A stretch of 53,511 nucleotides of DNA from NCBI GenBank assembly GCA_028282195.1, contig JANQII010000218.1, forward strand, positions 1 through 53,511, written 5' to 3'. The DNA comes from Prolixibacteraceae bacterium. Lineage in GTDB: Bacteria > Bacteroidota > Bacteroidia > Bacteroidales > Prolixibacteraceae. Made by a program: the position numbers and the translations under genes. The notes under the pieces were generated by a model, which was not told the origin of the DNA, ran no database searches, and saw only the letters and a list, made by a program, of their open reading frames with translations. Below, piece after piece: positions 1,018 through 13,852 of this stretch; positions within the stretch are counted from its first letter, which is position 1; every line of letters begins with the position of its first letter.

Positions 1018-2334
1018 TTAAATTCCACTAAAATCTACATTTTTGAATAACAGCGAAGGTGTTCGCCATGAAGAATCAGGCCTTGGATCATTGCCAACTT
1101 CAGCAAGACTTGTCCATAAATCTTTCATATTTCCGGTAATGTTCATTTCAGAAACAGGCTTAATTATTTTACCATTCTCAACAAGGAAACCATCAATCCC
1201 ATAAGAGAAATCACCTGTTGTTCCATTTGTATTTCCACCGTTGAATCCGGTTACAAGAATACCGTTATTCATTTCCTTGATAAGCCCTTCAAGATTTTTA
1301 TCACCTGTTTCAAAAATCAGGTTCGAAGTATCTCCTGTTGTTGGATCCATTTCCAGCTTCTTAGCATAGTAGGTGTCAATAAAATACGTTCCAAGAACAC
1401 CTTTGTCAAAAACAACACGTTTTTTAGCTGCGAGGCCTTCATCATCAAAAAGTTTGCTGCCACGTCCACCAACAATAAATGGATCATCAGTAAGTGTAAG
1501 TTTCTTTGATGCTACTTGTTCGCCAAGCTTATCAATTAAGAAAGAATTCTGTTGTTGAATGTTATATCCATCAAGTGCACTGATAAGCGGATAGAAGATT
1601 CTTCCAACGCTTCGGTTTTCAATAATCATGGAGTACTTACCGGATTTAATCTTTTCCTGGCCAATCTTTTTGATAGCACGATCAAGAGCTTTATTACCTA
1701 CCTCGTCTTTTTTCAGTTTATCAAAGAAAACAGCACTTTCGCGCCAGTTATCTCCCGGGCGGGCATCTCCGCCATCTACAGAAACAGATGCCGAGATATT
1801 GAAATAGCTGTTTTGCGTATCACCTTCAAAACCATTGCTGGTTACCATGATCTTGCTACTCATACTGTCAGAATAGGAAGCAGTAACTGAGATAATTCGT
1901 TCATCTTTATTCAAAGCTTCTTTTTCTGCATCAAAAGCCAGTTTTACTTTTGTTTCCGGCTCAATGTTATCATATGAACTGTCAAGAGTTTTTAAATCAT
2001 CACCATTCCCTTTAAAATATAATTCAGGATCAGGTAACGTGCGGAATTCGTCTTCAGCTAAATACTTTGTGGCTTCAATACCCTGCTCGATAAAACGGGC
2101 AAGTTCTTCTTTGTTAATCCGGTTTGTGCGTTGTACAGAATATTTATTGTCAACAAACAAACGAATGGTCATACTTCTTTGAATAGCTTCTTTAAGCGTG
2201 TCTATCTTTTTTTCGCGTACATCCACATTGCTGCTTTTGCTTTCGGCAATTGTTACGCTGGCTTGGCTGGCTCCATTATCGAGGGCATGTTGCATAGCCC
2301 ATTTGGCCAATGTATATTTTTCTTCTTTTGTCAT
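1018..2334 (-). CDS. pmbA: TldE/PmbA-family metalloprotease partner subunit
   Basis: Member of the TldD/PmbA family, 438 residues, close to the usual ~440-450. In E. coli, TldE (PmbA) pairs with TldD to form a protease that degrades unfolded peptides and processes microcin B17; TldE itself lacks the catalytic zinc site. No HExxxH motif is seen here, which fits the TldE role. The C-terminal region has the family pattern VTGFNGGNTNGTTGDFSYGIDGF and NITGNMKDL. No signal peptide is present: the start MTKEEKYTLAKWAMQ is hydrophilic. The gene is 28 bp downstream of tldD in the same direction, so the two form an operon. The partner TldD has an export signal, which makes the cytoplasmic prediction here puzzling. 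Confidence 0.9.
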   Translation of the reverse strand: MTKEEKYTLAKWAMQHALDNGASQASVTIAESKSSNVDVREKKIDTLKEAIQRSMTIRLFVDNKYSVQRTNRINKEELARFIEQGIEATKYLAEDEFRTLPDPELYFKGNGDDLKTLDSSYDNIEPETKVKLAFDAEKEALNKDERIISVTASYSDSMSSKIMVTSNGFEGDTQNSYFNISASVSVDGGDARPGDNWRESAVFFDKLKKDEVGNKALDRAIKKIGQEKIKSGKYSMIIENRSVGRIFYPLISALDGYNIQQQNSFLIDKLGEQVASKKLTLTDDPFIVGGRGSKLFDDEGLAAKKRVVFDKGVLGTYFIDTYYAKKLEMDPTTGDTSNLIFETGDKNLEGLIKEMNNGILVTGFNGGNTNGTTGDFSYGIDGFLVENGKIIKPVSEMNITGNMKDLWTSLAEVGNDPRPDSSWRTPSLLFKNVDFSGI

Positions 2335-2362
2335 TTTAATTCAGTTTACAGATGATTAATCA

Positions 2363-3889
2363 TTAAGCATTTGTACCGCCTACTGTAAGTTTTTTAACAA
2401 GAACGGTTGGTAGTCCACAGGTCACAGGAACAGACTGTCCGGATTTGCCGCATGTCCAGGTTCCGTTGTCAATCAGGTAATCCTGGGCACACATTGTAAT
2501 GTCAGCAAGTGCCTGAGGCCCGTTACCAATAATGTTAATGTCTTTAATTGGCTGAGTAAGCTTGCCATTCTCAATCAGGTATCCTGATTTTACAAAGAAA
2601 GTAAAGTCACCTGCACCGATCTTAACCTCTCCATTACTGAAGTTGTCCACGTAAATTCCATTTTTCACATTGGAAATGATATCATCTTTTGTATGTGGTC
2701 CGGTTTCCATATAAGTAGCACGCATGCGTGGTAATGGTACATGGCGGAATGACTCCCTGCGACCGTTTCCGGTAGGTGATACATTGTAGTGTTTGGCACT
2801 AATCCGGTCATGAATGTAGCTATTCAGAATACCATCTTTAACCAAATAAGTTTTTTCTGAAGGGATGCCTTCGTCATCCATATTGATAGAACCCCGGTTA
2901 CCAGGAAGTGTTCCGTCATCGATAATGTTTACAAAGTTCTCGGCAACATGCTTACCCATTTTATCAGCAAAAATTGAAGTGCCTTTTCTGTTGAAATCGG
3001 CTTCAAAAGTATGACCAATTGCTTCATGTAAGAGAATTCCGGAACCGCCGGCACCCATTACAACAGGCATCTCACCGGCTTTTGGTTTGGTTGCATCAAA
3101 TAAGATTGCGGTTCTGTCAACAGCTTCTTTTGCAATTTCGTTAACCAGTTCTTCATTCAAAAACTCAAAACCTTTGCGGAAAGAACGAGCAGAATAAGAA
3201 TTTTCCAACTGCCCATCTTTTTCCATAACGCAAACAGCTCCAAGACTTGTCATTGGGCGATAGTCATATGTGAATGTTCCTTCGGAATTATAAAACATGA
3301 CATAAGATGTTTCGTCAGTCATGAATACATTTACTTTTGAAACGCGTTCATCAAGACTGAAAATCTTGTCGTTTAGTTTTTGCACATGAGGTATTTTGTC
3401 TTTTACGCGAACATCTTCCCAGGATTTATCAATGGCATAGTAATCGGGAGGAATAGCTTCATTTAGTTCAGCCGCTGGAATGTTTTTTGTTCCACTGGCT
3501 ATATTTGCAGCAGTCCTGGCAGCTTTGAGCATTGCTTCAGGAGTAATCGTTTCGGAATAAGCAAATCCGGTTTGATCTCCTTTTAAAACCCGGATACCAA
3601 CACCATAGTCAATATTTGAATATGCCCTGTTTACTTTTCCGTCTTCAAGACCAAGACTGTTGAATAATTTATGCTCAAAATACAGGTCGGCATAATCGCC
3701 ACCTTTACTAAGTGCTGTAGAAACTACCTTTTCCAGGATTTCCATGTTTACCTCAAAATGTTCAAGATATGCCATAACATTTTCTGCTAAGGGAGTTGTT
3801 TGACATGAGTGGAGAAATGATGGCAACAGAACACCCCCGGCAACTGTTGCTCCACTGGCTTTTAAAAATTTTCTTCGATTAATGTTCAT
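2363..3889 (-). CDS. tldD: TldD-family zinc metalloprotease with Tat/lipoprotein signal
   Basis: Catalytic subunit of the TldD/TldE protease family, 508 residues. The zinc motif HEAIGH is at residues 288-293, and the C-terminal CGKSGQSVPVTCGLP segment, with Cys480 as the likely third zinc ligand, matches TldD. The N-terminus is unusual: RRKFLK (residues 5-10) is a twin-arginine motif followed by a hydrophobic stretch and a lipobox ending at Cys29 (LHSC). This predicts Tat export and lipidation, whereas classical TldD is cytoplasmic. The start codon is well placed because the signal begins directly after it. First gene of the operon with pmbA. Family assignment is certain; the location is inferred from the signal only. 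Confidence 0.93.
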   Translation of the reverse strand: MNINRRKFLKASGATVAGGVLLPSFLHSCQTTPLAENVMAYLEHFEVNMEILEKVVSTALSKGGDYADLYFEHKLFNSLGLEDGKVNRAYSNIDYGVGIRVLKGDQTGFAYSETITPEAMLKAARTAANIASGTKNIPAAELNEAIPPDYYAIDKSWEDVRVKDKIPHVQKLNDKIFSLDERVSKVNVFMTDETSYVMFYNSEGTFTYDYRPMTSLGAVCVMEKDGQLENSYSARSFRKGFEFLNEELVNEIAKEAVDRTAILFDATKPKAGEMPVVMGAGGSGILLHEAIGHTFEADFNRKGTSIFADKMGKHVAENFVNIIDDGTLPGNRGSINMDDEGIPSEKTYLVKDGILNSYIHDRISAKHYNVSPTGNGRRESFRHVPLPRMRATYMETGPHTKDDIISNVKNGIYVDNFSNGEVKIGAGDFTFFVKSGYLIENGKLTQPIKDINIIGNGPQALADITMCAQDYLIDNGTWTCGKSGQSVPVTCGLPTVLVKKLTVGGTNA

Positions 3890-4212
3890 TTTAGATGTTT
3901 TAAGATTATGCGGTTGTAAGTTCTTTAATTATAACGTTTTCAATATGTAAATGTGTATTATGGGTAGTAAAAAGATCATTAAAATTACGAAATATTGACG
4001 AGATATTTATGCTATATATCATAATTTTTTGTGTTGTAGGGCTAGAAATAGTTAAAAACAGTTGACCAGTAATAACTTGAGGGGTGTTTGGTTGAAAACA
4101 CATTATTTTGCAAGTTAGGGTATGTAATCGCAATATTCTTGTCGATAAATATGTGTTTTTTTGATCTGTATGTGTGTTTTTGCCAGGGTTGTTTCAGGGA
4201 AACACGAACAAA

Positions 4213-4260
4213 TGTAAACTTTGTATTAATTTTTGGCATATTGGTCATACAATGTTTACA
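4213..4260. promoter_or_regulatory. Inverted repeat, candidate operator for GSII
   Basis: Arms TGTAAACTTTGTAT (4213-4226) and ATACAATGTTTACA (4247-4260) are complementary at 13 of 14 positions, with a 20-bp spacer. The right arm overlaps the -33 position of the promoter predicted for the GSII gene, which is where a regulator could block or contact RNA polymerase. No T-tract follows, so this is not a terminator. The regulator is unknown. Confidence 0.5.
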
Positions 4261-4285
4261 ATTTTGCCTTATCGTTATATTTTTG
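4255..4285 (+). promoter_or_regulatory. Predicted Bacteroidota promoter for GSII
   Basis: TATTTTTG at 4278-4285 fits the Bacteroidota -7 consensus TAnnTTTG. A TTTA at 4255-4258, 19 bp upstream, is a weak -33 element. The implied start of transcription is near 4292, about 40 bp before the GSII ATG. Confidence 0.45.
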
Positions 4286-4334
4286 CTGTCAAAATATTGA
4301 AAAATAATATCATTAACTTATAAATTGTAACAAT

Positions 4335-5348
4335 ATGAAATCAAAATTGGAATATATCTGGCTGGATGGTTCAGTGCCAACTCAGCAGTTAAGGGCAAAA
4401 ACCCGTATTGCAGAAAATTTTAGTGGGAAGTTAGAAGATTGTCCAATTTGGTCGTTTGATGGTTCTTCAACGAATCAGGCAGGAGGTGAAGCTTCAGACC
4501 TTCTTTTGAAACCTGTTTTTATAATTCCTGATCCGGACCGTAAAAACGCTTTTTTGGTTTTAACTGAAGTTTTAAACCCAGATGGTACTCCACACGAAAC
4601 CAACGGACGTGCACACATTGAGCAGGAAGATGAAGATTTCTGGTTTGGTTTCGAGCAAGAGTATTTCTTGTATGACCCTAAAACACGTTTACCTTTAGGT
4701 TTCCCTGCCGGTGGTTTCCCGGAACCGCAAGGACCTTACTATTGTGGTGTTGGTGGTTCAAAAGTTTTTGGTCGTGCAATTGTTGAAGAGCATTTTGATT
4801 TATGCTTAGAAACTGGTTTGAATGTTGAAGGTATTAACGCTGAGGTAGCTGCCGGGCAATGGGAATTCCAAATTTTTGCTAAAGGAGCCCACAATGCAGG
4901 TGATCAAATCTGGATGGCCCGTTTCTTATTGGAACGTACTGCTGAAAGATATGGTATTGATGTTGAATGGCATCCAAAACCACTTGGAAAAGACCTTGAC
5001 TGGAATGGTTCAGGTATGCACGCAAACTTCTCGAATGGTTTAATGCGTACTTGCGGTGATGAGAAAGTATTTACAGCTATTTGCGAAGAGTTCGGAAAAT
5101 TTATTCCTGAGCACATTGAGGTATATGGAGCATACAATGATCAACGTTTGACTGGCCTTCATGAAACTCAGTCAATTGATGAGTACAGCTATGGTGTTTC
5201 TGACCGTGGGGCTTCTATCCGTATTCCAGTTGGAACGGTTGAGGATGGTTGGAAAGGTCGCCTGGAAGACCGTCGTCCTGCTTCAAATGCAGATCCTTAC
5301 AAAGTGGCAGCGCGTATTATCAAAACGGTACACGGAGCTAAGATTTAA
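4335..5348 (+). CDS. Glutamine synthetase, GSII (eukaryote-like) class
   Basis: ATP-dependent ligation of ammonia to glutamate, making glutamine; cytoplasmic. Length (337 residues) and motifs match the short GSII class: beta-grasp start KLEYIWLDGS, then PIWSFDGSST near residues 38-47, VGGSKVFGRAI, AGQWEFQIF, and the catalytic-domain motif WNGSGMHANFS near residues 223-233. The C-terminus GRLEDRRPASNADPYKVAARI is also typical. The ATG at 4335 begins directly at the conserved domain. It is a single-gene unit with its own dyad-containing promoter and terminator, converging on the HAD gene. It is one of three GS-fold genes within 7 kb. GSII enzymes are not controlled by adenylylation, so transcriptional control through the upstream dyad is plausible (inference). 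Confidence 0.95.
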   Translation: MKSKLEYIWLDGSVPTQQLRAKTRIAENFSGKLEDCPIWSFDGSSTNQAGGEASDLLLKPVFIIPDPDRKNAFLVLTEVLNPDGTPHETNGRAHIEQEDEDFWFGFEQEYFLYDPKTRLPLGFPAGGFPEPQGPYYCGVGGSKVFGRAIVEEHFDLCLETGLNVEGINAEVAAGQWEFQIFAKGAHNAGDQIWMARFLLERTAERYGIDVEWHPKPLGKDLDWNGSGMHANFSNGLMRTCGDEKVFTAICEEFGKFIPEHIEVYGAYNDQRLTGLHETQSIDEYSYGVSDRGASIRIPVGTVEDGWKGRLEDRRPASNADPYKVAARIIKTVHGAKI

Positions 5349-5371
5349 TTATAGCACTTAAGATATTTTAT

Positions 5372-5405
5372 AGAGCTGTCTGCGTAAGTAGATGGCTCTT
5401 TTTTT
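5372..5405 (+). terminator. Terminator after GSII
   Basis: Ten-base-pair hairpin, AGAGCTGTCT (5372-5381) with AGATGGCTCT (5390-5399), pairing fully with two G-U wobbles around an 8-nt loop. It is followed by a run of T from 5399 to 5405. It lies at the junction with the convergent HAD gene. Confidence 0.8.
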
Positions 5406-5414
5406 AGCTATGAG

Positions 5415-6272
5415 CTATCCAACAGCAACTGAATCACAGACATAGGTTGGAATGATGCCTGTTGACCGGATTTTCATTTTTGCATTCTCCGGAAGTGTAT
5501 TCCCGGAAAGAACAAGGACTGTATCTAAACCAAACTTATTGCCACCAATAATATCCGTGTACAGGGTGTCGCCAACCATTAAGATTTCATCACGATTAAT
5601 TTGCTGTACTTTCTGTGCTTTTTCTAAAGCAAACATAAACATTTGAACATCTGGCTTTCCAAAACGGATAAAACGCTTTCCAACGATATCTTCGACCATG
5701 TCAGCAATACCGCCAATAGCTACCGCAATATCTTTACGTGTTACCGGGTAATTAATATCGGTATTGGCCACTACAACCGACATGTTTTTTCTACGAAGAA
5801 GGTTGATGACTTTATTGATATCGTGGTTCCAGTCAAAACCTTCATCATCCAAAAAAACCAGGCATTTAATATTGTCAACGTGTTCTTGTTGGTCTAAATT
5901 GAGCGTACTGATGGGCATTGTTTGTAAGCCGGCAGTTTCAATATAATGGGCAGATTGTTCGGTTCCGAGGTAGGCTACAGTCCCTGATTTTATTTTTGAT
6001 TTCAGGTATTCCATTGCCAACATTCCGGAAGACAGTACTTTTTCTGTAGTGATTGATGTAATGCCTTTACGATGATATCCCAAAGCAAGCTCTTCCGGGC
6101 TTCTTGATGCGTCATTTGTTAATATGTAATAGTCAATTCCTAATTCATTAAGGTATTCAAAGGTTTTGTCAATGCCATTAATTAATCCTTTGTGATTCTT
6201 TAAAACCCCAAAGGCATCAAAAAACACTGTTTTATAATTTTTTACTATCTTTTTAAATTCAACCGTCTTCAT
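5415..6272 (-). CDS. HAD-superfamily class IIA (NagD-like) hydrolase, atypical motif I
   Basis: A 285-residue HAD class IIA protein. Such enzymes are usually phosphatases of small phosphorylated metabolites. Motif II (TNDASRSPEEL), motif III lysine (GKPDVQMF) and motif IV (GDTLYTDIIGG) are present. Motif I reads DAFGVL at residues 19-24: the nucleophile Asp19 is kept, but the second aspartate, the usual general acid/base, is Phe21. Some HAD-IIA subgroups also have an aromatic residue here, so activity may differ from standard phosphatases. It starts 4 bp after the kinase gene (7320-6277) and is the third gene of a minus-strand operon headed by a GSI-like ligase. A role in the same pathway is inferred from this context; the substrate is unknown. 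Confidence 0.85.
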   Translation of the reverse strand: MKTVEFKKIVKNYKTVFFDAFGVLKNHKGLINGIDKTFEYLNELGIDYYILTNDASRSPEELALGYHRKGITSITTEKVLSSGMLAMEYLKSKIKSGTVAYLGTEQSAHYIETAGLQTMPISTLNLDQQEHVDNIKCLVFLDDEGFDWNHDINKVINLLRRKNMSVVVANTDINYPVTRKDIAVAIGGIADMVEDIVGKRFIRFGKPDVQMFMFALEKAQKVQQINRDEILMVGDTLYTDIIGGNKFGLDTVLVLSGNTLPENAKMKIRSTGIIPTYVCDSVAVG

Positions 6273-6276
6273 CTAA

Positions 6277-7320
6277 CTAAATTTTTAGGGTTTTCAGGAT
6301 TTTTTCTACCTGATAGTTTTTATCAAGGACCGGGAAATAAATATCAAATGCTTCTTTTTGGAGTTTTCTGGCAAAGCTTTCCCTGAAAAAGTATTGTCCG
6401 TCTTTAATCACGTAATTTAAAATGAAAAAGCGATAAGCTTCTTTTATCAATATAACTTCAGCTTCTGTTAGTGGGTAAATTTTGTGATATTCTTTTAGAA
6501 ATATCAGGAAACGGTTTTCCATTAAAGGGTCGACCAAATAGCTAAACACAGTTCGGTCGCCAACATCGGAAACAACACGGCTAAAAAAATAGAAATCCAT
6601 TACACGTGAAGATTCACGGAACCAATCATAATCCCAACGAGAATAGAAACGTCCACTAGCGGTTACAGAGAAGTTCCCAATGTTCCAATCTACAAAAACG
6701 GGTATTGTTTCAATATCTGTTGTATAATTTACCTTGTCCGCATTTTCTAAAAAAATATCGCATTGCTTTTTGATTAAATCGTGGTGTTCCATATTTTCAG
6801 AAAACTCACCACATCTTAACTTTTTGGTTAGCTTATGAATATCAGTAATAACATTCTTTGAGGCTTTGGGGAGCTGGTTACTCACATTAGTACAAGCCTT
6901 GTGAAACCTGGCTAATTCACGGCCCATTTTTCGGATAAGCTTGTCATCTAACCTACGTGGTAGTTTTTGTTGAAACTTAATGGGGTTGTAGAAAACCACC
7001 CAGGCTGAACTTTTATTCAGATGGTAACGATAAATAAAAAGTTCGTTTCTTTTTACCAACGATTGAGCCAGGAAATTTTCGTAGGGGGTTTCCAGGTTGT
7101 TCGCCAGGTTGTTTATAATGATGTGGTCTTCGCGGAAATCTTCGAATTTTCCATATTCTGAAAGTTTAGCAAAAACAGGTTGCCTCTCAAAAAATGAAAT
7201 TTTATAAACGTGGTTGGTTGAAACATGGGCACTAACATCATAAATACCCTTAATTTCATGGCGATCATCAAATTCTTCCCAAGCCAAACGGATTATCTGA
7301 AAATAATCGAGCGTATGCAT
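6277..7320 (-). CDS. APH/choline-kinase-like small-molecule phosphotransferase
   Basis: A 347-residue protein with the aminoglycoside phosphotransferase/choline kinase-like fold, judged from motifs. VFVDWNIGNF contains a catalytic-loop-like Asp211 and Asn216 in the pattern DxxxxN, although the histidine usually two residues before the Asp is absent. WDYDWF at residues 229-234 (Asp230, Asp232) resembles the metal-binding DxD/DFE site. An N-lobe lysine candidate sits in VFAKLSEYG. It should transfer phosphate from ATP to a hydroxyl of a small molecule; the substrate cannot be told. It lies 41 bp after the GSI-like gene and 4 bp before the HAD gene, suggesting one operon. Overall similarity to known kinases is weak, so the family call is moderate. 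Confidence 0.6.
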   Translation of the reverse strand: MHTLDYFQIIRLAWEEFDDRHEIKGIYDVSAHVSTNHVYKISFFERQPVFAKLSEYGKFEDFREDHIIINNLANNLETPYENFLAQSLVKRNELFIYRYHLNKSSAWVVFYNPIKFQQKLPRRLDDKLIRKMGRELARFHKACTNVSNQLPKASKNVITDIHKLTKKLRCGEFSENMEHHDLIKKQCDIFLENADKVNYTTDIETIPVFVDWNIGNFSVTASGRFYSRWDYDWFRESSRVMDFYFFSRVVSDVGDRTVFSYLVDPLMENRFLIFLKEYHKIYPLTEAEVILIKEAYRFFILNYVIKDGQYFFRESFARKLQKEAFDIYFPVLDKNYQVEKILKTLKI

Positions 7321-7361
7321 AATTTCTTCTTTAGTCTGTAGAACCCCAAAAATAGCATGAA

Positions 7362-8717
7362 TTAAATGATTTCGAAATATCTTTTTATTTCCCAGTCCGT
7401 AACAGCCTTTGAAAATTCACGCCATTCCCATTCGCGGGTATTTATAAAGTGATCTACAAATGCTTCCCCAAACAACTCATTTGCTATTTTAGAATCTCTC
7501 ATGATCCTGCTTGCTTCGAGTAAGTTCGAAGGGAGGTTCTTACTCTCTTTTTGCTCGTACGCGTTACCTATTGTTTCCTGGATGTTGAGTTTTAAATTCT
7601 TCTTTATTCCATACAGACCTGATGCCAGGCAAGCGCCCATTGCCAGGTAAGGATTTGTGTCAGCACCTGTAACCCGCATTTCAAGCCTGGCTGATTTTTC
7701 GTCTCCATTAATTACCCGAACTGTTGCCGTTCGGTTATCTTTTCCCCAGGTTATATTTGTTGGTGCCCAGGCTCCTTCTCTTAATCGTTTATAGCTATTG
7801 ATATTTGGCACATACATTGGCATTATTTCAGGAAGGCAGTGCAATACTCCGGCAAGGTAACTTTCCATTGTTACATTCATATTGCCTTCTTCATCCGAAA
7901 GAAATAAATTCTGGTTAGTTGCTTTGTCCCACAGGCTTTGATGAAGGTGTCCTCCACACCCGGGAAGTTCGTCATTCCATTTAGCCATGAAGGTGGCAAC
8001 AATTCCGTGTCGGTATGCAATTTCTTTTACTCCGGTTTTAAAAAGAGCTGCTTTATCGGCTGCTGCTAAAATATCATCGTATAAAATGGCAGCTTCATAA
8101 ACCCCCGGGCCTGTTTCAGTATGCATCCCTTCAAGTGGAACGTCAAAAGCTGCAAGCATATCAAATATTTCATTGAAATACTCCGGGTACTCCGAGGGCC
8201 TTAATAAAGAGTAACCAAACATTCCGGGAGTAATTGGTTTAAGTTTGGTATAGCCTGATTCTGCTAAATCGTTTGGCTTTCCTAGAAAGTTAAACCATTC
8301 AAATTCCTGGGAAAACATCGAGCGAAACCCCATTTGGTCGGCTTCTGCCTTTATTTTTTTTAGTAAATTTCTTGAGCATGATGGAAGACCAGCTTCGTTT
8401 TCTTTGCTAAAATCAGCTAAAAAAAAGGGCGTTTGATTATCCCAGGGAATATTTCTTAAAGTACTAAGGTCAATTCTTGCCTGAGCGTCAGGATAACCTG
8501 AGTGCCAACCTGTAACTTTTACATTATCATAGCAAACATCATTGGCATCCCACCCAAAAACTACATCACAAAAGCCAATACTTTTTTCAGCAACATCCAA
8601 AAATTTCTTTTTATGAATGGTTTTCCCTCTCAAGATCCCATCAATATCAGGAATGGCAAATTTTATTTTCTGGTGTTCGCTATCCTTTATTTTTTGAATG
8701 ATTTCACTCTTTTCCAT
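7362..8717 (-). CDS. GSI-like glutamine synthetase family ligase (PuuA-type)
   Basis: A 451-residue member of the type I glutamine synthetase family. Conserved GS motifs include FGWDANDVCY, CGGHLHQSLWD (glutamate/ATP site), a NITWGKDNRTATVRV segment and MRVTGADTNPYLAMGA. The C-terminus (LPSNLLEASRIMRDS to VTDWEIKRYFEII) looks like gamma-glutamyl-polyamine or -amine synthetases such as PuuA. The adenylylation-site region of true GlnA (NLYDLPPEE-like) is absent. It may therefore join glutamate to an amine other than ammonia (inference). It is the first gene of a minus-strand operon with the kinase and HAD genes, and is divergent from GSIII across a shared 401-bp region. The genome already has GSII and GSIII for ammonia assimilation, which supports a different substrate. 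Confidence 0.88.
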   Translation of the reverse strand: MEKSEIIQKIKDSEHQKIKFAIPDIDGILRGKTIHKKKFLDVAEKSIGFCDVVFGWDANDVCYDNVKVTGWHSGYPDAQARIDLSTLRNIPWDNQTPFFLADFSKENEAGLPSCSRNLLKKIKAEADQMGFRSMFSQEFEWFNFLGKPNDLAESGYTKLKPITPGMFGYSLLRPSEYPEYFNEIFDMLAAFDVPLEGMHTETGPGVYEAAILYDDILAAADKAALFKTGVKEIAYRHGIVATFMAKWNDELPGCGGHLHQSLWDKATNQNLFLSDEEGNMNVTMESYLAGVLHCLPEIMPMYVPNINSYKRLREGAWAPTNITWGKDNRTATVRVINGDEKSARLEMRVTGADTNPYLAMGACLASGLYGIKKNLKLNIQETIGNAYEQKESKNLPSNLLEASRIMRDSKIANELFGEAFVDHFINTREWEWREFSKAVTDWEIKRYFEII

Positions 8718-9118
8718 GCCTTCAACTTATAATAATTTATGCCTCAATAATCAAATTAAACGTAATCAAACATTTTAAGCAAATATTTATTGGAATATCT
8801 ATTTGTTGCACTAATAAGATCATGTATTATGAAATTTGAAATTTTCTTTATTTTATTGTTTAGTAAATGTGTGAATTATTGTTAAAATCCTAATCAATTC
8901 TTTGATAAACCGCATGCTTTTTTTAATCTTTTTAATTGAAAAAATTATAAAATATTGATTTTTGTCAAAAATACAGGGGTTTAACTTTAAAGATTTCTCA
9001 AAAAATAAAATATTGCACCAATAAATTAGCCCTAAATATTGAAAAAGTGTAATTTTGAAAAATTAAGCATTTGGAAAAATAGTTTTGAAGAATTATATTA
9101 ACTATAAACAGATTTAAG
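8718..9118. other. Divergent promoter region, GSI-like ligase / GSIII
   Basis: A 401-bp AT-rich region with no gene. It drives the ligase operon leftward and GSIII rightward. TAATTTTG at 9050-9057 fits the Bacteroidota -7 element for GSIII, but no clear -33 element is seen 19-22 bp upstream. Two near-identical 12-mers, TTGCACTAATAA at 8806-8817 and TTGCACCAATAA at 9013-9024, lie in the same orientation 207 bp apart. Confidence 0.6.
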
Positions 9119-11308
9119 ATGGCTGATTTTAGATTTAAAGCACTTCAGGAGGTACTTTCACGTCAACCTAAGGAAGTAAAAAGAGAGGATGCATTAACCT
9201 CAGACTTTTATGCAATTAAAGTTTTTGACAGGCCAAAAATGAAAAAATACCTGTCAAAAGAAGCATTTAAAGCAGTAAGTGATGCAATTGATCACAGTAA
9301 ACCTGTAGATCGTAAAATGGCTGATCAGGTAGCACAGGGAATGAAGGCCTGGGCAACCGAAAATGGAGCAACTCATTACACACACTGGTTTCATCCTTTG
9401 ACAGATGGAACAGCTGAAAAACATGATGCTTTTATTACACATGGTGAGAATGGTGGCGTTGTAGAAGCTTTCTCCGGGAAGTTGCTGGCGCAGCAAGAAC
9501 CAGATGCTTCATCATTCCCTAGTGGGGGTATTCGTCAAACTTTTGAGGCACGTGGTTATACGGCCTGGGATGCTTCTTCTCCCGCTTTCATAAGTGATGG
9601 TACGTTATGTATCCCAACAGTCTTCATTTCATACACCGGTGAAGCATTGGATTACAAAACACCTATGCTTAGGGCACTTGCAGCTGTTGATAAAATTGCA
9701 ACAGAGGTGTGTCAGTATTTTGATAAAAATGTAACCAAGGTTCACGCTAACCTTGGCTGGGAACAGGAATATTTCCTGATTGATGATGCTTTGTTTATGT
9801 CTCGTCCAGACCTTATTTTGACAGGTCGTACTTTAATGGGGCATGCTTCTGCAAAAGATCAGCAATTGGATGATCACTATTTCAGTTCAATTCCAACAAG
9901 GGTTTACCGCTATATGGAAGACCTTGAAAATGAAGCTTACAAATTGGGTATTCCTGTGAAAACCCGTCATAATGAGGTGGCTCCTAACCAATTTGAGTTA
10001 GCTCCAATTTATGAAGAATGTAACCTTGCAAATGATCATAACCAATTGATCATGGATGTGATGAAGAAGGTAGCCAGAAGGCACAATTTCCAAATTCTTT
10101 ATCATGAAAAACCATTTGCTGCAATTAATGGTTCCGGGAAACACAATAACTGGTCACTGGAGACAGATACTGGTGTAAACTTATATTCCCCGGGGAAAAA
10201 CCCTAAGTCAAACTTGCAGTTCTTAACTTTTGTAATTAATACATTGAAAGCTGTTTACGACAATCAGGATTTGCTTCGTGCAAGTATTTTGACTGCAAGT
10301 AACTCGCATCGTCTTGGTGCAAATGAAGCGCCTCCTTCAATTCTTTCAGTATTCTTAGGTTCTGAAGTCGGCAAAATGCTTGATTTGATGGAAGAAGCAG
10401 TTGTTGATCGCAAAATGACACCGGACGAAAAAACGGCGTTGAAACTAAATATTGGCCGTATTCCAGAAATTATCCTGGACAACACAGACCGTAACCGTAC
10501 TTCACCGTTTGCATTTACGGGTAACCGCTTCGAGTTCCGTGCTGTGGGTTCATCAGCAAACTGCGCTCCTGCTATGATTGCCTTAAATACTGCAATTGCT
10601 GCTCAGTTGACCCAGTTCAAAAAAGATGTTGATGCAATTATTGATACAGGTATTAAAAAAGATGAAGCAATTTTCCAGGTACTTAAAAAGTTAATTATTG
10701 ATTCGAAACCGATTCGTTTTGATGGAAATGGGTATAGTGATGAGTGGGTTGAAGAAGCAGCTAAACGTGGGTTGACCAATGTGAAAAGTGTACCTGAAGC
10801 TCTTTCTGCTTATTTGACAGACGATGTGAAGAAGTTATTCTCTGGCATGGATGTGCTTTCTGAAGCTGAATTGGAAGGACGTACTGAAGTTGAGTATGAG
10901 AAATTCACCATGAAAATCCAGATTGAAGCTCGTGTGCTTGGCGACCTGGCAATCAACCATATCGTTCCTACTGCGGTTCAGTATCAAACTACTTTGTTGA
11001 ATAATGTGAAGAATCTGAAAGAAGTATTTACGGAGCAGGAATTTAATGAATTAGCTGGAGCCCGTAAGGAATTGATCAAAGAAATCAGTGGGCATATTTC
11101 TTCAATAAAAGCAAAAGTAAAAGAAATGGTTGAGGCCAGGAAGGTAGCTAATGTTATTGAAGATGCCATTGAGAAAGCAAATGCTTATGACAAAACTGTT
11201 CGTCCTTATTTGGATGATATTCGTTACCATATTGATAAACTTGAACTAATAGTTGATAATGAACTTTGGCCATTGCCAAAATATCGTGAGCTGCTGTTTG
11301 TTAGATAA
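9119..11308 (+). CDS. glnN: Glutamine synthetase type III (GSIII)
   Basis: Large glutamine synthetase of the GSIII class, 729 residues, the usual size for these dodecameric enzymes. Class motifs are clear: NLGWEQEYFLID, RHNEVAPNQFELAPIYE, NGSGKHNNWS, and the GSIII signature SNSHRLGANEAPPSI. The GSIII-specific C-terminal helical region is present (to residue 729). It makes glutamine from glutamate and ammonia and is often the main nitrogen-limitation enzyme in Bacteroidota. It has its own promoter region shared divergently with the GSI-like operon. The 3' end is followed 8 bp later by a REP palindrome that could act as a terminator. ATG start at 9119 with no better alternative. Confidence 0.97.
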   Translation: MADFRFKALQEVLSRQPKEVKREDALTSDFYAIKVFDRPKMKKYLSKEAFKAVSDAIDHSKPVDRKMADQVAQGMKAWATENGATHYTHWFHPLTDGTAEKHDAFITHGENGGVVEAFSGKLLAQQEPDASSFPSGGIRQTFEARGYTAWDASSPAFISDGTLCIPTVFISYTGEALDYKTPMLRALAAVDKIATEVCQYFDKNVTKVHANLGWEQEYFLIDDALFMSRPDLILTGRTLMGHASAKDQQLDDHYFSSIPTRVYRYMEDLENEAYKLGIPVKTRHNEVAPNQFELAPIYEECNLANDHNQLIMDVMKKVARRHNFQILYHEKPFAAINGSGKHNNWSLETDTGVNLYSPGKNPKSNLQFLTFVINTLKAVYDNQDLLRASILTASNSHRLGANEAPPSILSVFLGSEVGKMLDLMEEAVVDRKMTPDEKTALKLNIGRIPEIILDNTDRNRTSPFAFTGNRFEFRAVGSSANCAPAMIALNTAIAAQLTQFKKDVDAIIDTGIKKDEAIFQVLKKLIIDSKPIRFDGNGYSDEWVEEAAKRGLTNVKSVPEALSAYLTDDVKKLFSGMDVLSEAELEGRTEVEYEKFTMKIQIEARVLGDLAINHIVPTAVQYQTTLLNNVKNLKEVFTEQEFNELAGARKELIKEISGHISSIKAKVKEMVEARKVANVIEDAIEKANAYDKTVRPYLDDIRYHIDKLELIVDNELWPLPKYRELLFVR

Positions 11309-11315
11309 TGATTTT

Positions 11316-11348
11316 ACTGATCCGATGACTCGAAGTCATCGGATCAGT
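11316..11348. repeat. REP-like palindrome 1
   Basis: Perfect 15-bp arms (ACTGATCCGATGACT and its complement) around a 3-nt loop CGA. Core shared with the other copies is GATGACT-NNN-AGTCATC. A T-rich run follows, so it may double as the GSIII terminator. Confidence 0.85.
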
Positions 11349-11370
11349 TGTTTTTGCTTATGACTGTACA

Positions 11371-11407
11371 TTATTCATCGGATGACTTCAAGTCATCCGA
11401 TGAATAA
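11371..11407. repeat. REP-like palindrome 2
   Basis: Perfect 17-bp arms, TTATTCATCGGATGACT at 11371-11387 and the complement at 11391-11407, with a 3-nt loop TCA. It overlaps the 3' end of the RAYT remnant and supplies its stop codon. Confidence 0.85.
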
Positions 11408-11772
11408 ACTAACCCAAATTCGTTTGCTTTTTCCCGGTCAATCAGACTGCCATTTCTTATTCTCGCATAATCCTTTGCAGACGAGAACTCCCAATCCTCG
11501 ATATTTTCGGCTAAACCGTGTTTCACCGGGTTGGCATGAATGTAGTCAAAGCAAACTTGTGGATATTCTTTTTCGGGATAAGAAAGGTTGATTATGGCTT
11601 CATATCTTGATTGAGACCATGAAGGGGAAACACCATCAACTTCTGTAAGGCAGACCGCTTTAGTTTTTGCTTGAAAAAGTGAACCATGTATTTGCTCCTG
11701 TTTTTGTATGGCACGGGTGTAAGACCTTAAGAGTATTGCAATGGAGTTATTTAGTGTCCTCTTTTTGATAGT

Positions 11773-11805
11773 ATTGATCCGATGACTCAAAGTCATCGGA
11801 TCAAT
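11773..11805. repeat. REP-like palindrome 3
   Basis: Perfect 15-bp arms (ATTGATCCGATGACT and its complement) around the loop CAA. It lies inside the open frame of the RAYT remnant and is translated in that frame. Confidence 0.85.
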
Positions 11806-11833
11806 GGCTTCTCCGCAATCATTTTTACCGTGA

Positions 11834-11870
11834 TTACTGATCGGATGACTCGAAGTCATCCGATCAGTAA
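11834..11870. repeat. REP-like palindrome 4
   Basis: Perfect 17-bp arms, TTACTGATCGGATGACT at 11834-11850 and the complement at 11854-11870, loop CGA. It is 28 bp from copy 3 and lies inside the RAYT frame and upstream of the OmpA lipoprotein gene. Confidence 0.85.
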
Positions 11871-11908
11871 ATTGAGCCAATTTTTTCTGTAATTTAGTTG
11901 CCATACAA

Positions 11909-13852
11909 ATGGCTAAGATGAAACAGCAAATACTACTTTCACTCCTGATCGTTATCCTTTGTGCAGGTTGTGGGTCTAACAAATTTTTGGTTGGTAAAAA
12001 GCATTATCAACAAGGCGAATACTTCAAAGCAATTGAAAATATCCGTGAAGTTTACACCAAGCTAAAAAGCAAGGAGGAAAAAGCGGAGGCAGTGTACATG
12101 CTTGGTAAAAGCTACAAAGCATTGGGAGAATACAACAAAGCTTCCCCCTGGTTTAAAAATGCAACTCGTTATAAATTTGCTGCAGATAATTTGTATGTAG
12201 ATTTTGCTGAGGTTCAAAAGGCCGCAGGGAAATTAGATGAAAGTGCTGAAGTTTACGGAAAGATACTTGAAAATGATTCGAAAAGTAAGCAGGCCAGATT
12301 TGGATTAAAAGGAATTGAAGCAACAAAAAACTGGGTAGAAAACCCAAGCCTTTATCAGGTTGAAAAAATGAGTCGTTTGAATTCAAATGGCCATGAAAGA
12401 TCGATCTCAATTTTAGCCAATAGGTCACTTATGATTTCATCATCGCGTGATGGAACAACAGGTAAAACGATTAACCCAGTTGATGGACAAGGGTATGCAG
12501 ATTTATTTACGGCTGATTATGACCCTGCATATCAAAAATGGTCATTCCCAAAATTGTTGGATGAAAGTGACTTAAACACTGAAGCAGATGAAAATCATGT
12601 TCATGTGTCTGTTGATGGAAATAAATTGGTACTTGCAAAAACGAATGTTGAGTCGGGGAAGAATCATCAATTATTTTATAGTCTGAAGAATGGAGACCAG
12701 TGGGGTTCGCTACAGGCGGTTTCCTTTACAAAAGATGGATTTGATTATCCACAGGCAAGTTGGTCAGAAGATGGCAGGTGGCTTTATTTTTCATCAAACC
12801 GAACGGGAGGGAATGGAGGTTTTGATATCTGGAAGGCTCAAATGAATGAACCCGGATCTTTTGATGAGCCCATCAATTTGGGTACGCAGATTAATACGAA
12901 AGGCGATGAGCTATATCCGGTTGAGAGGCGAAGTGGGATTTTGTATTTTTCTTCAAACTATCATATGGGAGCAGGGGCACAGGATATTTTTCGCGCGCGT
13001 AAGGAAAGAGGGTGTTGGCAAATTACCAATATGGGAATGCCTGTAAATTCACATGCCGATGATTTTGGCATCCAGTTTTTAGGAAATAAGGAGAAAGGCT
13101 TTTTCATCTCAAACCGAAAAGGTAGTCGTAAGCTGGATGTTTACAGTTTCTTTCTTCCACCGAAATTATTTATGTGCTTCGGAAAAGTATTCAACGAAGA
13201 AACTGATTCAGTTATCCAAAATGTAAATATCCGTGTAGCAGGTACAGATGGTTCAATTCATAAATTGGTTACCAGTAATGGTGAGTTTCAGGTAGAATTA
13301 TTACCTGACAATGAATACACACTAATTGCTTACAAAAAAGGCTTCTTAAATGCTCAGTCCAAAATCTCAACAAAAGGGTTAAATGAAGCTCAGGAGTTCC
13401 AGGTTGAGTTTAAGCAAACTCCGACTGATAACCCGATTCGTCTTGAGCAAATCTATTACGAAACCGGGAAATGGGAGCTGTTGACATCTTCAAAAAAATC
13501 GTTGGATGAGCTAGTCAATATCCTTCAGATTAACCCAAATATTCAAATTGAAGTTAGTGCACATACCGATGAGGTTGGCGCGGAAGCTTTTAATTTGGAA
13601 CTTTCTCAAAAAAGGGCAAACGAGGTGGTGCGTTATTTAATTGAAAAAGGAATTTCTGCTAAACGTTTGATTGCAAAGGGTTATGGGGAGAAGAAACCTT
13701 TTATTGTTAATGCAAAAGTGGCTAAGAATATTGAGTTTCTGGAGCGTGAAGCAATGCTTTCACCGAAATTTATTTCTAGTTTAGATGAGGCTCAGCAAGA
13801 AATTGCCAAAAGCCTTAACCGGCGAACCGAGTTTGAGGTAATTGGTGATTAA
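11909..13852 (+). CDS. porE: PorE-like OmpA-family lipoprotein of the T9SS
   Basis: A 647-residue lipoprotein: signal peptide with lipobox ending at Cys21 (LCAGC). TPR-like repeats follow at about residues 25-130, a WD40/PD40-type beta-propeller at about 160-410 (DGRWLYFSSNRTGGNGGFDIW is a typical blade), a carboxypeptidase-regulatory-like domain at about 415-500, and an OmpA peptidoglycan-binding domain at about 511-647 (SAHTDEVGAEAFNLELSQKRA). This TPR-propeller-CRD-OmpA order is that of PorE (PG1058 of Porphyromonas gingivalis), which anchors the type IX secretion system to peptidoglycan. The exact paralogue is not proven, since related OmpA proteins share the layout. ATG 11918 (MKQQ) is an alternative start. 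It is flanked by REP palindromes on both sides; sprA lies 3 kb downstream. Confidence 0.8.
   Translation: MAKMKQQILLSLLIVILCAGCGSNKFLVGKKHYQQGEYFKAIENIREVYTKLKSKEEKAEAVYMLGKSYKALGEYNKASPWFKNATRYKFAADNLYVDFAEVQKAAGKLDESAEVYGKILENDSKSKQARFGLKGIEATKNWVENPSLYQVEKMSRLNSNGHERSISILANRSLMISSSRDGTTGKTINPVDGQGYADLFTADYDPAYQKWSFPKLLDESDLNTEADENHVHVSVDGNKLVLAKTNVESGKNHQLFYSLKNGDQWGSLQAVSFTKDGFDYPQASWSEDGRWLYFSSNRTGGNGGFDIWKAQMNEPGSFDEPINLGTQINTKGDELYPVERRSGILYFSSNYHMGAGAQDIFRARKERGCWQITNMGMPVNSHADDFGIQFLGNKEKGFFISNRKGSRKLDVYSFFLPPKLFMCFGKVFNEETDSVIQNVNIRVAGTDGSIHKLVTSNGEFQVELLPDNEYTLIAYKKGFLNAQSKISTKGLNEAQEFQVEFKQTPTDNPIRLEQIYYETGKWELLTSSKKSLDELVNILQINPNIQIEVSAHTDEVGAEAFNLELSQKRANEVVRYLIEKGISAKRLIAKGYGEKKPFIVNAKVAKNIEFLEREAMLSPKFISSLDEAQQEIAKSLNRRTEFEVIGD

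Follow-up and report, generated by a model that had tools for sequence, protein, structure and literature searches.

A conserved ligase, kinase and HAD-IIA gene set in Bacteroidota with a possible role in amino-alcohol metabolism

Introduction

Several members of the glutamine synthetase (GS) superfamily join glutamate to an amine. Ethanolamine is gamma-glutamylated by GlnA4 of S. coelicolor, by an operon of C. salexigens whose ligase is probably Csal_0679, and by the MED193_10046 operon of Phaeobacter; IpuC, PuuA and PauA7 are further gamma-glutamyl-amine ligases. Here we describe a set of three genes, coding for a putative ligase of this kind (LIG), a predicted small-molecule kinase (KIN) and a HAD-IIA protein (HAD), in a 53,511-nucleotide stretch of a Prolixibacteraceae bacterium (contig JANQII010000218.1), hereafter the window. 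LIG has in common with the ethanolamine ligases both the superfamily and the loss of ammonia residues, and with IpuC, PuuA and PauA7 an aromatic residue at the place of E327, although its operon partners differ from those of IpuC and PuuA. Sisters of LIG in seven Bacteroidota genomes lie with a permease, an iron-containing alcohol dehydrogenase (Fe-ADH) and an aldehyde dehydrogenase, as in the ethanolamine operons, whereas the LIG of the window has a kinase and a HAD protein as partners instead.

Amino alcohols are also handled as phosphates. The ethanolamine and serinol amides of C. jejuni follow the logic of a kinase paired with a CobD-like decarboxylase. The same logic is found in the routes that use the kinases BluE or PduX together with CobC/CobD, and in SMUL_1544 (PMC6249242 and PMC4585668). 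It resembles what we propose for part of the Prolixibacteraceae, but such a decarboxylase was found neither in the genome of the window (at E 1e-40) nor, in strong form, in 395 Bacteroidota genomes. KIN shares its fold and a catalytic K, D, N, D series with the APH, choline, ethanolamine and homoserine kinases, but has no Pfam match. HAD is related to 2hx1, chronophin and NagD and keeps their core motifs, but departs from chronophin at the +2 position of motif I.

We found no earlier description of the three-gene set in the open-access literature, a body that leaves out most subscription journals. Our best explanation, in which we place middling confidence, is that LIG, KIN and HAD form a conserved amino-alcohol module of Bacteroidota that glutamylates an amine and handles a phosphorylated member of the same pathway.

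Results and Discussion

LIG, KIN and HAD form a conserved gene set

The sequence-only reading of the window had singled out these genes as a possible pathway, and the arrangement that it gave is confirmed: all three lie on the minus strand, with gaps of 41 and 4 bp, between two GS genes. We examined the best 80 named loci of at least 528 relatives retrieved with KIN; since 18 of the 80 are shorter than 15 kb, all neighbour counts are lower bounds. The grouping is more than chance: 79 loci have HAD no farther than 1.5 kb from KIN, always on the same strand, the single exception being L086, where the contig ends. LIG lies within 1 kb of KIN in 69 loci (on the same strand in 68), while a GlnII-type GS is found within 7 kb in 46 and a GSIII in 25. 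The neighbourhood is thus borne out in close and distant Bacteroidota alike, and the first refuting condition set by the sequence-only reading, separation of the three genes in related genomes, does not apply.

Whole-genome searches, which do not depend on linkage, were carried out in 395 genomes of the phylum Bacteroidota and in a separate set of 41 close relatives. We accepted KIN matches at E up to 0.001 and members of the HAD subfamily at E up to 1e-70 (395 genomes) or 1e-40 (41 relatives), and counted as LIG all matches over 600 bits, leaving out five at 343-355 bits (G198, G219, G255, G353, G392); one KIN match was removed as spurious (G260, E 1.2e-4, 50 residues, one stop). KIN is present in 42 of the 395 genomes and the HAD subfamily in the identical 42, while LIG is present in 41; all three genes occur together in 35, about one tenth of the sample. 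Fisher tests for co-occurrence give p values of 1e-57 and 7e-37, with relatedness ignored and 28 of the 42 genomes belonging to one family. By matched coordinates, KIN and HAD are at most 271 bp apart in 41 of the 42 genomes and 2.3 kb apart in the remaining one, and all but one of the 35 genomes holding all three (34) have LIG no more than 650 bp from KIN. Among the 41 relatives, KIN and HAD coincide again (12 of 12), although they sit on separate contigs in three (G019, G026, G028), and LIG is found in ten of these twelve, plus G021. LIG, KIN and HAD are therefore a real conserved set, kept by scattered Bacteroidota in several families. For a joint function of KIN and HAD, the best indication is that their co-occurrence persists without linkage.

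The tie of LIG to the other two is looser. KIN and HAD occur without LIG in seven of the 42 phylum genomes, so the substrate of KIN and HAD need not be the product of LIG. These genomes, and the three relatives in which KIN and HAD lie on different contigs, would suit a different account in which LIG is an amine ligase and a frequent passenger, while KIN and HAD serve something else, for example as a kinase with a metabolite-repair or regulatory partner. We regard this as possible though rather unlikely: the near-constant adjacency of LIG to KIN where all three are present speaks against it, as do four Emticicia genomes that lack an adjacent LIG yet carry one elsewhere. The latter emerged from ten named genomes without LIG near KIN (an eleventh, L046, lies at a contig edge and was left out). 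Besides the four Emticicia, Desulfopila has a 570-bit relative within a dehydrogenase operon, three genomes have only a 34% relative, which in two is beside an ethanolamine-type permease, and the last two have, respectively, a single 276-bit match and no match at E 1e-60.

Two of these genomes deserve a further remark. In Emticicia (L179:8125-9459) the gene after the unlinked LIG resembles a GntP-type transporter at its start, judged by eye. In Desulfopila sp. IMCC35006 (L045:7001-10425), KIN, HAD and GlnII are 64-76% identical to those of the window, which makes it likely, from sequence comparison, that they were acquired by horizontal transfer from Bacteroidota. A plasmid search with KIN as query gave no match. 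The closest named relatives of the window by KIN identity, among the matches listed, are Gaoshiqia and Sunxiuqinia (75-79%).

LIG is very probably an amine ligase

We aligned LIG with E. coli GlnA and PuuA and followed the active-site residues over 99 LIG rows; these, like the 106 HAD and 114 KIN rows used below, are distinct sequences, several of which come from one genome (two records or two starts). In all 99 rows, E327 is replaced by W (W317 in the LIG of the window) and Y179 by F (F167). E129, E131, E212, E220, H269, E357, R321, R339, R344 and R359 are kept throughout, H271 and R355 in 98 rows, and the place of N264 is P. LIG thus retains the metal, glutamate and ATP residues of a GS catalytic domain, and because the residues for ammonia are lost while these are kept, it should use an amine. 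The place of D50 is less constant, with D in 80 of the 99 rows, including the window, and E, T, N or another residue in the rest. By alignment, IpuC has W and PuuA has Y at the place of E327; according to PMC6529630, neither E327 nor D50 is conserved in GlnA4, which acts on ethanolamine, or in PauA7, the place of E327 being F331 in the former and W296 in the latter.

Curated models give a concordant picture. LIG scores 213.2 bits against the GlnA model TIGR00653 (cut-off 429.15) and 191.4 bits against the PuuA model NF045547 (GGputSyn, cut-off 650), and is also under the cut-off of the gln_synth_III model; its identity is 26% to E. coli GlnA, 29% to PuuA and 40.5% to IpuC. We conclude, from residues and scores, that LIG is very probably a non-ammonia amine ligase, as the sequence-only reading had supposed in comparing it to PuuA. 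That comparison can be sharpened: the GGputSyn score rules out that LIG is PuuA, and an ethanolamine-like amine is more probable than putrescine. That LIG is a plain ammonia-using glutamine synthetase, to which the PF00120 family and the identity to GlnA would point, is highly improbable and was rejected on the same replaced residues and the TIGR00653 score. It is also disfavoured by the presence of two other GS genes beside LIG and of two more GS-like genes in the genome, where PF00120 proteins number five: LIG, GlnII, GSIII and two GSI-like proteins on other contigs. The flap motifs of the flanking enzymes, RLTGLHET in GlnII and HRLGANEAPP in GSIII, are taken here to hold the acidic residue equivalent to E327, which would set them apart from LIG; the sequence-only reading had held that GSII and GSIII in the locus make a third ammonia-assimilating GS less needed. 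GlnII is a recurrent neighbour. Some genes annotated as glutamine synthetase in Bacteroidota are thus probably not ammonia enzymes.

Sister ligases lie in ethanolamine-type operons

The settings of the 41 LIGs in the phylum sample fall into two kinds, 34 lying beside KIN and seven in an operon with a permease. In all seven, the LIG is accompanied by the permease, an Fe-ADH and an aldehyde dehydrogenase. Two of the seven permeases were compared with the ethanolamine permease model TIGR00908, and both pass its cut-off of 381.75 (438.9 and 438.5 bits); an eighth permease-LIG pair is present in G021 at a contig end. A PuuD-like C26 hydrolase is labelled by BLAST in five of the seven operons, and none is labelled in L134. 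In L129 (9443-11542) a PuuD-like hydrolase is apparently fused to the aldehyde dehydrogenase, judged from the first residues.

In a quick tree with long outgroup branches, the seven permease-operon LIGs group as a single clade (support 92), which branches from within the KIN-operon LIGs (support 80 for the join). The two groups have 130 of 156 conserved columns in common, and no position is specific to either. A table in PMC9397018 assigns four families, PF00120, PF00465, PF00171 and PF05013, to the use of ethanolamine by C. salexigens; the Bacteroidota permease operons hold three of these four families (PF00120, Fe-ADH and aldehyde dehydrogenase), with PF07722 replacing PF05013. PMC10132767 describes the Phaeobacter operon as closely related to genes shown to function in ethanolamine use in C. 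salexigens, and Csal_0678 as a homologue of the Phaeobacter ethanolamine-binding protein. Csal_0679 (5dm3) is the numerical neighbour of Csal_0678 and, by this numbering and its family, is probably the C. salexigens ethanolamine ligase. It is the second PDB sequence match of LIG, after 11zs and before the 1-naphthylamine ligase 8wwu, and ranks 14th among its fold matches.

Because the seven LIGs of this clade share their operons with an ethanolamine-type permease and with the two dehydrogenases, the amine of LIG is likely to be ethanolamine or a close amino alcohol; we favour, with some reserve, an ethanolamine-type substrate. The same seven operons show that LIG is separable from KIN and HAD, which would also be expected if it were a frequent passenger beside these two genes. 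The locus of the window is distinct from the ethanolamine catabolic operon already known, the remaining genes of which do not adjoin LIG: none of permease, Fe-ADH, aldehyde dehydrogenase and amidohydrolase is among the eight window proteins at 1018-11982, the part of the genome that was searched for them.

A second GS-like lineage, 34% identical to LIG, lies beside aldehyde dehydrogenase and SDR-looking genes in L181, L182 and L183, and in L181 and L182 also beside an ethanolamine-type permease; operons of this kind may thus have arisen in parallel.

KIN is a predicted small-molecule kinase

No Pfam or NCBIfam family matches KIN at E 0.001, and a sequence search of the PDB at E 0.1 gave nothing. 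A structure model built from 47 sequences (pLDDT 87.8) was compared by Foldseek, and the listed matches, among them 4wh2, 2ppq, 2qg7 and 6ef6, are kinases of the APH fold: N-acetylhexosamine kinase, homoserine kinase, APHs, aminopropanol kinase, and ethanolamine and choline kinases. E values go down to 5e-9 and TM values up to 0.7, at 10-17% identity over the 50 matches listed. The model thus upholds the APH-like assignment made from the sequence, while the fold found by the structure search does not reveal the substrate. All 114 KIN sequences have K52, D211, N216, D230 and D232, and where the HxD histidine would stand they have F (107) or L (7); these positions have catalytic roles in kinases of this fold. 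Given the invariance of the five residues, KIN is predicted to be active.

HAD lacks the usual general acid

HAD passes the cut-off of the HAD-IIA model TIGR01460 (120.5 bits, cut-off 100.15), and its best PDB match is the close homologue 2hx1, by name a predicted sugar phosphatase (E 6.6e-108). Its fold is accordingly given by a solved homologue, while those of KIN and LIG come from models. D19, T52, K206, D235 and D240 are invariant over the 106 HAD rows. Position 21, two residues after the motif I aspartate, is F in 70 rows and Y in 36, so that the Asp found at this place in ordinary phosphatases, including pyridoxal phosphate phosphatase/chronophin, is absent from all 106. The +2 Asp is the general acid of HAD phosphatases, and HADs that lack it (P-type ATPases, phosphonatase, dehalogenase) are not known to act on ordinary alcohol phosphates. 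A D142-D143-E144 stretch, also invariant, is probably located in the cap and could substitute for the missing residue. Removal of phosphate by HAD is thus less certain than the sequence-only reading took it to be, and an ordinary phosphatase is doubtful. This unusual active site would also be compatible with KIN and HAD having a task of their own, apart from the ligase.

Neighbouring genes hint at gamma-glutamyl chemistry

A GGACT-like gene is present in 23 of the 80 named loci, directly beside LIG in 22 (PF06094 was checked on one). In the LIG-free relatives G026 and G028, a PuuD-like hydrolase gene (PF07722) adjoins HAD: in G026 it directly precedes HAD, and in G028 the order is GlnII, a PLP gene, the PuuD-like hydrolase and HAD, with KIN elsewhere. 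These genes are independent hints of the gamma-glutamyl chemistry that the sequence-only reading had proposed, and a gamma-glutamyl hydrolase next to HAD where LIG is missing argues against KIN and HAD being unrelated to the ligase. As a general partner in LIG-free genomes, the PuuD-like hydrolase was rejected, since G026 and G028 are the sole genomes among the 41 relatives with the strong type (over 290 bits); it is absent from 13 hand-picked phylum genomes, which include the seven LIG-free ones. Weaker matches of 59-113 bits are present.

The hydrolase and cyclotransferase neighbours, together with the gene order and tight spacing, would also fit a narrower proposal in which KIN adds a phosphate to the gamma-glutamyl compound itself, to give gamma-glutamyl phosphoethanolamine or similar, and HAD takes it off again. 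This is a special case of our best explanation, and the likelihoods of the two overlap. We consider it doubtful, given the seven genomes that have KIN and HAD but no LIG; a search of the open-access literature did not turn up a metabolite of this kind.

A CobD-like gene is present in 16 of the 80 named loci, 15 times between HAD and GlnII and once next to HAD where a contig ends; in an example (L026:8933-10075), the best PDB match is 6oux, threonine phosphate decarboxylase-like. Strong matches occur in eight of the 41 relatives, all of which have KIN. A general role for this decarboxylase is weakened by the 395 genomes, which give five matches (143-248 bits) in four genomes, one of them with KIN (G183). 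In the window, HAD and GlnII are 66 bp apart with no CobD-like gene between them.

The flanking GS genes had also been taken as a link to nitrogen status. A count of 10-mers over 25 LIG/GSIII gaps gave no clear motif that would indicate co-regulation with GSIII, the commonest 10-mer occurring in 10 of 25, with no chance control.

A possible amino-alcohol module

From its residues, clade and operon context, LIG would convert ATP and glutamate to gamma-glutamyl phosphate and pass the glutamyl group on to form a gamma-glutamyl amide; the acceptor would be a small primary amine, with ethanolamine or a close amino alcohol the likeliest. KIN would phosphorylate the hydroxyl of the same amino alcohol, of its precursor or of the gamma-glutamyl derivative, and HAD, acting once another step has intervened, would hydrolyse a phosphorylated compound of that pathway; we place the two in a shared pathway because of their exact co-occurrence, even when unlinked. 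In part of the Prolixibacteraceae, the CobD-like phospho-amino-acid decarboxylase may supply phosphoethanolamine or aminopropanol phosphate. The module as a whole might store, protect or detoxify an amino alcohol and tie it to glutamate.

Several observations weigh against this scheme. A kinase and a phosphatase acting on one compound would be a futile cycle, and efficient hydrolysis of an alcohol phosphate by HAD is doubtful because its usual general acid is absent. Seven phylum genomes, and the relatives G026 and G028, possess KIN and HAD without LIG. The CobD-like gene is lineage-specific, none of the 395 genomes exceeding 248 bits; it has no match in the genome of the window at E 1e-40, and weak matches (179 and 202 bits) occur in two relatives that lack KIN. 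As to the ligase, PMC5299690 calls Csal_0679 only a putative GS, and 11zs is titled simply glutamine synthetase. The nearest plasmid relatives listed, at 46% identity, lie beside an aldehyde dehydrogenase with no annotated Fe-ADH, one of them having a class III aminotransferase and a spermidine/putrescine transporter nearby and one a sodium symporter, and IpuC is annotated for isopropylamide. Because of these mixed neighbours and of the IpuC annotation, the amine of LIG may be different from ethanolamine.

The earlier reading as a whole therefore survives in its neighbourhood, its amine ligase and its gamma-glutamyl hints, and is doubtful in its ordinary HAD phosphatase. If the amino-alcohol module is real, nitrogen and phospholipid-headgroup metabolism would gain an amino-alcohol branch, a HAD protein without its usual general acid would be there to study, and three genes without a clear label (a "glutamine synthetase", a Pfam-less protein and a HAD with a homologue of predicted function) become one testable module. 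More tentatively, the set could point to a new class of metabolites, phosphorylated gamma-glutamyl amino alcohols such as N-gamma-glutamyl-phosphoethanolamine, or to a new route from Ser/Thr to amino alcohols through kinase, decarboxylase, HAD and ligase, with HAD as a catalytic variant that acts on an activated phosphate or uses the cap acids D142-D143-E144.

Layout of the locus and other observations

The features of the locus are given in Table 1. The hairpin between GlnII and HAD is of little weight, as a scan of 3.9 kb gave three terminator-like sites where 2.8 are expected by chance; promoter and terminator scans alike returned site numbers at chance level.

Table 1. Features of the LIG-KIN-HAD locus in the window
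Feature	Position	Strand	Remarks
LIG, GS-fold gamma-glutamyl-amine ligase (predicted)	7362..8717	-	451 aa, ATG start; PF00120 308 bits
KIN, APH/choline-kinase-fold small-molecule kinase (predicted)	6277..7320	-	347 aa, ATG start; structure model and Foldseek
HAD, HAD-IIA hydrolase without the +2 general-acid Asp	5415..6272	-	285 aa, ATG start; TIGR01460
GlnII-like glutamine synthetase, convergent neighbour	4335..5348	+	NF041605 394 bits, under the cut-off of 500
GSIII, divergent neighbour	9119..11308	+	PF12437 253 bits
Terminator-like hairpin in the gap where GlnII and HAD converge	5372..5399	+	weak; scan at chance level

The two GSI-like proteins encoded elsewhere in the genome, of 514 and 499 aa, lie on contigs C274 (L014:1087-2631, plus strand) and C282 (L015:1126-2625, plus strand). 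Their scores with the GlnA model, 222 and 208 bits, are under its cut-off of 429, and the second has G at the place of E327, so these may be non-ammonia ligases too. Judged by eye from gene starts, the neighbours of the first are isoaspartyl peptidase-like and gamma-glutamyltransferase-like.

Beyond GSIII, a 203-aa open reading frame on the minus strand (11371-11982) overlaps the start of the next gene. It has no Pfam match and contains a stretch, YIHANPVKHGL, that to us is reminiscent of REP-associated transposases.

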